Source: Betaproteobacteria bacterium
GTDB taxonomy: Bacteria > Pseudomonadota > Gammaproteobacteria > Burkholderiales > SG8-39
Length of the DNA: 34,165 bases
Reading direction: 5' to 3'
NCBI GenBank assembly: GCA_016177575.1
Contig: JACOVA010000096.1
Coordinates: 1 to 34,165, forward strand
Of this stretch, positions 25,389-27,714 are shown piece by piece (the first letter of the stretch is position 1; every line of letters starts with the position of its first letter). The notes under the pieces were generated by a model. That model searched no databases, was not told where the DNA came from, and worked only from the letters and a program-made list of their open reading frames with translations. The translations under genes were made by a program, and so were the position numbers.

Positions 25389-26459
25389 ATGTCAGATCAA
25401 TTCATCGGCGTCAAGCCGGTCGAGGAGCGCCATCGATTCGATCAGGCGCGCCTGGAAGCGTTCCTGCGGGAGCGCATCGAGGGCTTGCGCGGGCCGCTCG
25501 AAGTCGAGCAGTTCAGGGGCGGGCAGTCCAATCCGACTTACCGTATCAGCGCCGGCGGCGAGCGCTTCGCACTGCGCAGGAAACCCCCGGGCAAGCTGCT
25601 GCCCTCGGCGCACGCCGTGGATCGGGAGTTCCGCGTCATCAGCGCGTTGCACAAGGTCGGCTTCCCGGTGGCGAAGCCCTGCTTGCTGTGCGAGGACGAC
25701 TCGGTCATCGGCACCGCGTTCTACGTCATGGACTGCGTCGACGGACGCGTGCTGTGGGACCAGTCGCTGCCGGGCATGTCGAAGGGCGAGCGCTTCGCGA
25801 TCTGGGACGAGCTCAACCGCGTCATCGCGCTGCTGCATTCGCTCGACTATCGCGCGCTCGGCCTCGAGGGCTTCGGCAAGCCGGGCAGCTACATCGGGCG
25901 CCAGATCGGGCGCTGGACCAAGCAGTACCTCGCTTCCGAGACCGCGAAGATCGAGGCCATGGACCGGCTGATCGCCTGGCTGCCGCAGAACCTGCCGCCG
26001 GGCGACGAGACCACGGTGGTGCACGGCGACTACCGGCTCGACAACACGATCTTCCACCCGACCGAGGCGCGCATCCTCGCCGTGCTCGACTGGGAGCTGT
26101 CGACGCTCGGTGATCCGATGGCCGACTTCGCCTACCATTGCATGAGCTGGCACATCCCGCCGGGGCAGTTCCGCGGCATCGCCGGCCTTGACCTGGCGCA
26201 ACTCGGTATTCCGGGCGAGTCGCAGTATGTCGAGGCCTACTGCCGCCGGGTCGGCCGCAAGGCAGTCGAGCCCTCGGTGTGGGACTACTACATGGCGTAC
26301 AACCTGTTTCGCATCGCCGCCATCCTGCAGGGAATCGCCAAGCGGGCGCTGGACGGCACCGCGGCGTCGAGCCACGCCGCCGAGGCCGGCGCGCGCGCCC
26401 GCGTCATGGCGGAGCTGGGATGGCAGCAGGTCGAGGGAATACTGAAAAGGGCCGCGTAA
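25389..26459 (+). CDS. Phosphotransferase (APH fold), ACAD10/11-N-terminal or LvaA-like
   Basis: A 356-residue kinase-fold protein. [14 protein letters not shown] is the nucleotide loop region, [20 protein letters not shown] holds the Lys and the family's hallmark, [14 protein letters not shown] is the catalytic loop, and [18 protein letters not shown] has the metal-binding Asp. This subgroup matches the kinase domain of human ACAD10/11 and Pseudomonas LvaA, which phosphorylate 4-hydroxyacyl-CoAs. It is not an antibiotic-resistance enzyme by this signature. An acyl-CoA dehydrogenase gene starts 10 nt after its stop, the two-gene version of the mammalian fusion. Confidence 0.87.
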
Positions 26460-26469
26460 AGGAGCTGAC

Positions 26470-27714
26470 ATGGATTTCGAGCATTCGCCGAAGGTCAAGG
26501 AATTGCAGATGCGCCTCAAGGCGTTCATGGACGAGCACATCTATCCCAACGAGCCGAAGTACTACGCGCACACGCGGGGCGACAAGCGCTGGGAGCCGGT
26601 GCCGGTGATCGAGGAGCTCAAGCCGCTGGCGCGCAAGGCCGGGCTGTGGAACCTGTTCCTGCCGCACTCGGCGCGCGCGCCGGAAGGCCTGTCGAACCTC
26701 GAGTACGCGCCGCTGTGCGAGATCATGGGGCGCGTGTCATGGGCCGCCGAAGTGTTCAACTGCTCGGCGCCGGACACCGGCAACATGGAGACGATCGAGC
26801 GCTATGGCACCGAGGAGCAGAAGACGCAATGGCTGGAGCCGCTGCTGCGCGGCGCGATCCGCTCCGCGTTTCTCATGACCGAGCCCGCAGTGGCATCCTC
26901 CGACGCCACCAACATCCAGATGCAGATCAGGCGCGACGGCAACGACTACGTGATCAACGGGCGCAAGTGGTGGTCCTCGGGCGCCGGCGACCCGCGCTGC
27001 AAGCTCTACATCGTCATGGGCAAGACCAACCCCGAGCACGCTTCGCGCCACAGCCAGCAGTCGATGATCCTGGTGCCCGCCGGCACGCCGGGCATCACGA
27101 TCCTCCACCATCTCAACGTCTTCGGCTACGACGACGCGCCGCACGGCCACATGGAGATCGAATTCAAGGACGTGCGCGTCCCGGCCGCCAACATCCTGCT
27201 CGGCGAAGGGCGCGGCTTCGAGATCGCGCAAGGGCGCCTCGGGCCGGGGCGCATCCACCATTGCATGCGCCTGATCGGCCAGGCCGAGCGCGCGCTGGAG
27301 AAGATGTGCAAGCGCGCGACGCAGCGCGTCGCCTTCGGCCGCACCATCGCCGAGCAGGGCGTGACGCGCGAGCGCATTGCGGAAGCGCGCATCATGATCG
27401 ACAGCGCGCGCTTCATGGTGCTGCACGCCGCCTGGAAGATGGACACCGTCGGCAACAAGGTGGCGCGCAAGGAGATCGCCATGATCAAGGTGCTGGCGCC
27501 GACCATGGCCTGCCAGGTGATCGACTGGGCGATGCAGGTGCACGGCGGCGGCGGCGTCACCGACCGCTACGGACTCGCCAACATGTACGCGCACGCGCGC
27601 ACGCTGCGCTTCGCCGACGGCCCCGACGAGGTGCACCGCAACGCCATCGCCAAGCAGGAGATCGCCGAGCAGACCTCGATCGCCGAGGCGCTAGCGACGA
27701 AAAAGCGCGCCTAG
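26470..27714 (+). CDS. Acyl-CoA dehydrogenase, ACAD10/11- or LvaC-like
   Basis: A 414-residue flavoenzyme. [19 protein letters not shown] is the FAD/substrate motif, [16 protein letters not shown] follows, and [20 protein letters not shown] and [20 protein letters not shown] bind [16 protein letters not shown] at the C-terminal active site is the ACAD10/11 type rather than the common YEGTNEIQ type. With the phosphotransferase before it, the likely job is removing the phosphate of a 4-phosphoacyl-CoA to give an enoyl-CoA for beta-oxidation. GGAG lies close before the ATG. The 3' end overlaps kynU by 24 bases. Confidence 0.88.

Follow-up and report, generated by a model that had tools for sequence, protein, structure and literature searches.

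A kinase and acyl-CoA dehydrogenase gene pair on a Betaproteobacteria contig that is very probably a split counterpart of ACAD10/11

The window, by which we mean the whole stretch of 34,165 nucleotides that was analysed, is one entire contig (C39) of a 1.96-Mb Betaproteobacteria genome that is 64% complete. The features discussed below are the following.

25389-26459, + strand: APH-fold small-molecule kinase of the ACAD10/11-kinase type, a proposed 4-hydroxyacyl-CoA 4-kinase of 356 aa (Pfam, PDB, signature, tree)
26460-26469, + strand: intergenic gap of 10 nt, AGGAGCTGAC (sequence)
26470-27714, + strand: ACAD10/11-type acyl-CoA dehydrogenase (ACAD) homologue, a proposed FAD-dependent 4-phosphoacyl-CoA phosphate-eliminating enzyme of 414 aa (PDB, residues, tree)
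31438-33411, - strand: FadJ-like gene
33421-34131, - strand: thiolase gene, incomplete, near the contig end

The kinase gene was taken to begin at the ATG that coincides, in the alignment, with the starts of its relatives, and a divergent cupin ORF begins 33 nt upstream of it. The GC fraction at third codon positions is 0.83 in the kinase frame (calculated on the longer ORF from 25035) and 0.94 in the ACAD, with a GC content of 69% for the window. The gap contains AGGAG, which resembles a ribosome-binding site and lies 5 nt 5' of the ATG of the second gene. An earlier sequence-only reading of this DNA described the two genes as adjacent, 10 nt apart and under one promoter. Both ORFs are real and lie on the same strand with the gap as described; a consensus scan of positions 24900-28000 gave no promoter-like site on the + strand, the single site found being on the - strand, and the promoter claim is thereby reduced to the spacing of the genes, which suggests co-transcription. 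No kinase match other than that of the window turned up in the 64%-complete genome, and the next-best ACAD of the same genome is just 35% identical to the window ACAD.

The kinase matches the Pfam family APH (PF01636) with 185.6 bits, far over the cut-off of 23.2, in agreement with its previous description as an APH-fold phosphotransferase. Against all PDB sequences it gave nine matches: 3dxp (487 bits), two entries of mouse ACAD11 (302 and 298 bits), 9o56 (200 bits) and five others of less than 30 bits each. In local alignments it is 62.4% identical to 3dxp and 45.8% identical to the kinase half of mouse ACAD11. The predicted functional residues are the catalytic D214 (in HGD), N219, the Mg-binding Asp of LDWE, R171, and R79 beside the alpha-C Glu80. 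This RERDND signature is the same as that of ACAD11 (HGD Asp, Asn, DWE Asp, the Arg by the alpha-C Glu and the Arg in the alphaE-catalytic region), and D220 and N225 of the mouse ACAD11 kinase are reported to act in catalysis (PMC12440821). The Arg beside the alpha-C Glu is named R86 in PMC12440821; position 86 counts as Phe, the Arg found there is R84, and its window counterpart is Arg79. In a survey of 160 kinase rows, R, E, R, D, N and D were present in all 39 rows that are at least 42% identical and in 88 of the 120 rows below 32%.

The ACAD carries all three domains of the family, with 136 bits for Acyl-CoA_dh_1, 76.1 bits for Acyl-CoA_dh_M and 42.2 bits for Acyl-CoA_dh_N, and no NCBIfam model reached its cut-off among the 22 models listed. 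Its closest matches in the PDB are mouse ACAD11 (497 and 495 bits), human ACAD11 (487 bits) and 4hr3 (445 bits), and among the best 60 of 86 matches the ordinary ACADs score from 140 bits down. Local alignment gave 58.0% identity to the ACAD domain of mouse ACAD11 and 57.9% to the human one. R256, R261, H264, R267 and D383 align with R626, R631, H634, R637 and D753 of the mouse enzyme; the segment ADGPDEVH, to which the sequence-only reading had drawn attention, is present, and its Asp is residue 383, aligned with the catalytic D753. R626, H634 and R637 have been modelled as holding the 4-phosphate beside the base D753, R631 being general to ACADs; their substitution by Ala or Leu was the most disruptive to the ACAD step, R637K had a partial effect, and a redox-active FAD was required (PMC12440821). 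Among 190 ACAD-like rows, each covering at least 330 profile positions, R/R/H/R/D was found in 162/162 rows with an identity of 50% or more to the window ACAD, which were mostly fetched by similarity to it and are thus not independent, and in 17 of the 28 rows below 40%, the other 11 differing. Five of these 28 have no neighbouring kinase, and none of the five carries the residues.

The ACAD tree contains 78 rows (80 were chosen; L183 and L193, with no usable sequence, were dropped), including four references and five ordinary ACADs, which are five of the 11 other matches in the window's own genome; 69 of the 73 non-ordinary rows were chosen among carriers of the signature. The window ACAD, mammalian ACAD11, 4hr3 and all signature rows (73) are split from the five ordinary ACADs with an SH-aLRT support of 100. 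The sequence-only reading had named a grouping of the ACAD with ordinary fatty acyl-CoA dehydrogenases as evidence against itself, and this grouping did not occur, all five falling outside the clade at that support. In the kinase tree (56 rows; L051 was left out as too short; the root was chosen on the kinases beside DUF6285 proteins), a group with support 98 unites the window kinase, 16 relatives, 3dxp and a single kinase from Cupriavidus. This group nests in a 32-row set with the ACAD11 kinase with support 83, which is below the 95 mark, the mouse ACAD11 row having a long branch and an odd composition. A second kinase type forms a separate 14-row set with support 100. Both trees, which do not include LvaA and LvaC, come from a quick search method and contain some long branches (in the ACAD tree those of the outgroup).

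Such an ACAD (E <= 1e-100) was found in 39/61 sampled relatives and in 39/369 genomes of the class, the window genome being counted in both cases, and in 30/47 of the more complete relatives. Fifteen loci of relatives whose ACAD reaches 75% identity or more were fetched, of which L061 was set aside because of a contig end, the partial ACADs of G373, G377 and G381 being outside the count. In all 14 assessable loci the kinase gene immediately precedes the ACAD gene on its strand, with a gap of -4 to +11 in 13 of them and of 128 in one. A kinase match stands beside the ACAD in 21/29 fetched relatives' loci, and none was found in the other eight within about 1.5 kb per side (one is cut by a contig end). 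Class-wide, 12 of 29 loci have a kinase match and 17 have none within about 1.5 kb per side; the gene order is reversed in nine of the 12, the gap exceeds 800 nt in three, and three of the matches are just 31-36% identical. The pairing of kinase and ACAD is thus conserved in close relatives and looser further out. We dropped the ACAD alone as proof of function: a pocket-bearing ACAD does not by itself prove the reaction, because many such members of the subfamily are found without a nearby kinase.

Some observations were made in passing. A scan of viral contigs gave one contig with a kinase and no ACAD match. Pseudomonadaceae carry ACADs that are 62-64% identical to the window ACAD and have no kinase match nearby, among them those of L116 and L125 (none within about 6 kb per side) and of L154 (none within 1.5 kb); divergent from the ACAD of L116 and of L154 is an ORF that by eye looks LysR-like. 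At three plasmid loci a module of this kind is accompanied by SDR genes: two of them, on Novosphingobium and Sphingobium plasmids (L020, L177), have a one-strand run of ACAD, kinase, SDR, SDR, FadJ-like and acyl-CoA ligase genes, which makes their catabolic cluster more complete than that of the window, and the third has a second-type kinase and an AMP-binding gene upstream. In a Burkholderia cenocepacia locus (L019) the gene beside the kinase, recognised by its RHG start alone, presumably belongs to the histidine-phosphatase family. A gene annotated as a member of this family lies beside the kinase in a Deinococcus locus (L022), and one is reported in the lva cluster of P. citronellolis (PMC6692424). 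Histidine-phosphatases are a possible recurrent accessory of such kinases.

The closest solved relatives, the catalytic and phosphate-pocket residues, both trees and the pairing in close relatives all bear out the proposal of a split ACAD10/11, and we consider it very probable that the pair is a two-gene form of this enzyme acting on 4-hydroxyacyl-CoA. Judged by homology to assayed homologues, the kinase would use ATP to phosphorylate the 4-hydroxyl of 4-hydroxyacyl-CoAs, and in the ACAD homologue Asp383 would serve as the C2 base beside a redox-cycling FAD, with expulsion of the phosphate. The FAD would accept a hydride, the phosphate would leave and the hydride would probably be handed back, so that no electron acceptor would take part; the product would be a 2-trans-enoyl-CoA for ordinary beta-oxidation, formed without net oxidation. 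This is the reaction scheme described in PMC11342911 and PMC12440821, where phosphorylation of the 4-OH is followed by elimination of phosphate by the ACAD to give a 2-enoyl-CoA. The generic names "aminoglycoside phosphotransferase" and "acyl-CoA dehydrogenase" give way to one specific prediction, namely that bacteria with the pair can feed 4-hydroxy acids into beta-oxidation.

The same fold and pairing could also serve another hydroxylated acyl-CoA (one with the hydroxyl elsewhere, or a branched or cyclic one), for which the kinase and the phosphate pocket would be reused. The pocket occurs in ACADs that neighbour three or more kinase lineages and also in ACADs with no kinase close by, which suggests that substrates may vary across the superfamily, and the gene neighbourhood is uninformative. 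Against this stands a report that no phospho-product of 5- or 6-hydroxyhexanoate was formed by ACAD10 in cells (PMC11342911). The window kinase is moreover placed in the same set as ACAD11 and 3dxp (support 83), and we regard a different substrate as improbable.

In Pseudomonas putida the genes are ordered lvaA-lvaB-lvaC. LvaA and LvaC, a kinase and an ACAD, produce 2-enoyl-CoA via 4-phosphoacyl-CoA; lvaB is also needed for growth on levulinate, and the three proteins sit with LvaD and LvaE (PMC12440821, PMC11342911, PMC6692424). If the pair were a genuine lva-type system devoted to levulinate and its kinase the LvaA orthologue, it would have the same two chemistries, and the window ACAD does belong to the LvaC/ACAD10/11 subfamily, the reported identity of LvaC to ACAD11/10 being 56-62% (PMC11342911). 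LvaB (about 12 kDa) is, however, encoded between LvaA and LvaC, and the 10 nt between the window genes leave no room for it. Among the 29 window ORFs scanned against Pfam (of 117 listed), there was no AMP-binding acyl-CoA ligase such as LvaE and no adjacent SDR such as LvaD, the only SDR found being 12 kb from the pair. LvaA, compared here by its published figure, is reported to be 29% identical to the kinases of ACAD10/11, and for other bacterial kinases identities of up to 51% (ACAD10) and 38% (ACAD11) are given (PMC11342911); since the window kinase has 46% identity to mouse ACAD11, it belongs with the other bacterial ACAD10/11-like kinases. We therefore find an lva system in this sense highly improbable. 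The likeness to LvaA-LvaC put forward by the sequence-only reading stands for the chemistry; it fails for the operon, with no gene in between and no LvaD- or LvaE-like neighbour, and nothing points to levulinate, which is one conceivable substrate only. The pair would work like LvaA-LvaC, and a reading as an lva system is not supported. No lva operon was recognised in the Pseudomonadaceae searches (one genus, its family and a second genus) or in 80 loci of the second kinase type; the start genome of the former, G162, was taken as Pseudomonadaceae from an RsmY (RF00195) match over the family cut-off. DUF6285 (PF19802) was considered as a possible match of LvaB. This identification was dropped: the full-length ACADs adjoining DUF6285 mostly have an identity of about 33-35% to the window ACAD, compared with the 56-62% between LvaC and ACAD11/10, which argues against it.

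That an aminoglycoside-phosphotransferase-like kinase merely neighbours an ordinary fatty acyl-CoA dehydrogenase, a reading which the generic family names APH and Acyl-CoA_dh would fit equally, can be dismissed as having a negligible chance, given that the kinase reaches 32.1 bits with the NCBIfam APH(3') model (NF033068), whose cut-off is 205, that the ACAD has Asp383 and an R/H/R pocket instead of the catalytic Glu and absent phosphate pocket of ordinary ACADs and stands apart from the five in the tree, and that the pairing is kept in close relatives.

The split ACAD10/11 pair had also been thought to feed the FadJ/thiolase set of the window. These genes are indeed present; the link is not borne out beyond their sharing a 34-kb contig. 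They lie at least 3.7 kb from the pair on the opposite strand, with kynureninase-like, tryptophan dioxygenase, GST, MarC and 4HBT thioesterase genes in between, and a beta-oxidation operon with FadJ and thiolase was rejected on account of the strand and the intervening genes. The product of the pair would enter beta-oxidation regardless of where FadJ and thiolase are located. Across 14 longer regions, all picked for having both genes and several of them cut by contig ends, the neighbours of the pair change with distance: 4HBT and FadJ matches of at least 57% occur together in six (L262, L263, L267, L269-L271), in four of these with thiolase, and no FadJ match above 32% was found in the four most distant (L272-L275).

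Other genes of the window may be mentioned here. The kynureninase-like and tryptophan 2,3-dioxygenase genes (27691-29696, - strand) lie directly downstream of the pair and convergent with it, scoring 72 bits (under the cut-off of 246) and 385.1 bits (just under 390.7), respectively. A threo-3-hydroxy-L-aspartate ammonia-lyase gene (17638-18963, - strand) scores 534.7 bits with a cut-off of 452. The ORF at 1676-3925 (- strand) is a radical SAM ORF with an intein-like insert, which matches Pfam LAGLIDADG_3 (35.3 bits, over the cut-off) and Intein_splicing (29 bits, under 35.8), and among NCBIfam models the intein-containing Rv2578c-type (514 bits, under 700) and the PA0069-family radical SAM (480 bits, over 360).

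It is possible, although we hold this only tentatively and think it rather unlikely, that the R/R/H/R/D pocket is the hallmark of a far larger superfamily in bacteria, one that three or more separate kinase lineages serve and in which phosphorylation followed by elimination is general and DUF6285 is a kinase partner. The second kinase type is less than 32% identical to the window kinase (28% and 30% in the two measured) and is found beside SDR genes in several plasmid loci. From a genome-contig search with aligned second-type kinases, 80 loci of this type were kept (L182-L261). In 34 of them an ACAD with R/R/H/R/D is encoded on the strand of the kinase, no more than 1.5 kb away, and in 43 no full-length one was seen within the stretches examined. 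DUF6285 proteins accompany the third kinase type, and the ACADs found there have just 33-35% identity to the window ACAD. DUF6285 has an APH kinase nearby in 27/28 Pseudomonadaceae loci (L126-L153) and in 5/5 class-wide (L013-L017), and the Pseudomonadaceae loci with a full-length ACAD row have R/R/H/R/D in 11 of 13, the residues being absent in the other two. A literature search, whose coverage leaves out most subscription papers, returned no paper on DUF6285. If the wider proposal is true, bacteria would generally remove acyl-CoA hydroxyls in this way, at several positions or on several scaffolds, and DUF6285 would be to its kinase what LvaB is to LvaA.

Among known proteins, PDB 3dxp is 62.4% identical to the window kinase and falls in the same tree set (support 98). 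It was deposited as a "putative acyl-CoA dehydrogenase", a name at odds with its kinase sequence; the misnaming may reflect a kinase-ACAD pairing. Mammalian ACAD11 (PDB 8v3u/8v3v, 2wbi) is like the window pair in both domains, in the catalytic Asp of the kinase, in the R/R/H/R pocket and in the catalytic Asp of the ACAD, and the mouse protein is 46% (kinase) and 58% (ACAD) identical to the pair, a comparison that covers ACAD11. In mammals ACAD10 and ACAD11 are each fused in one chain and organellar, ACAD10 with an additional HAD domain (PMC12440821), whereas the window has two genes 10 nt apart. In this respect it can be compared, by the published description, to the separate kinase Q63VL0 and ACAD Q63VL1 of Burkholderia pseudomallei, whose genes are probably adjacent, as the consecutive accessions suggest. 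Each of these replaced the matching part of ACAD10 in vitro, they were active on 4-hydroxyhexanoyl-CoA, and they are described as closer to ACAD10 than the P. putida proteins (PMC11342911). The chemistry has thus already been published, including for another split bacterial pair (PMC11342911), and the window pair is an ordinary further case.
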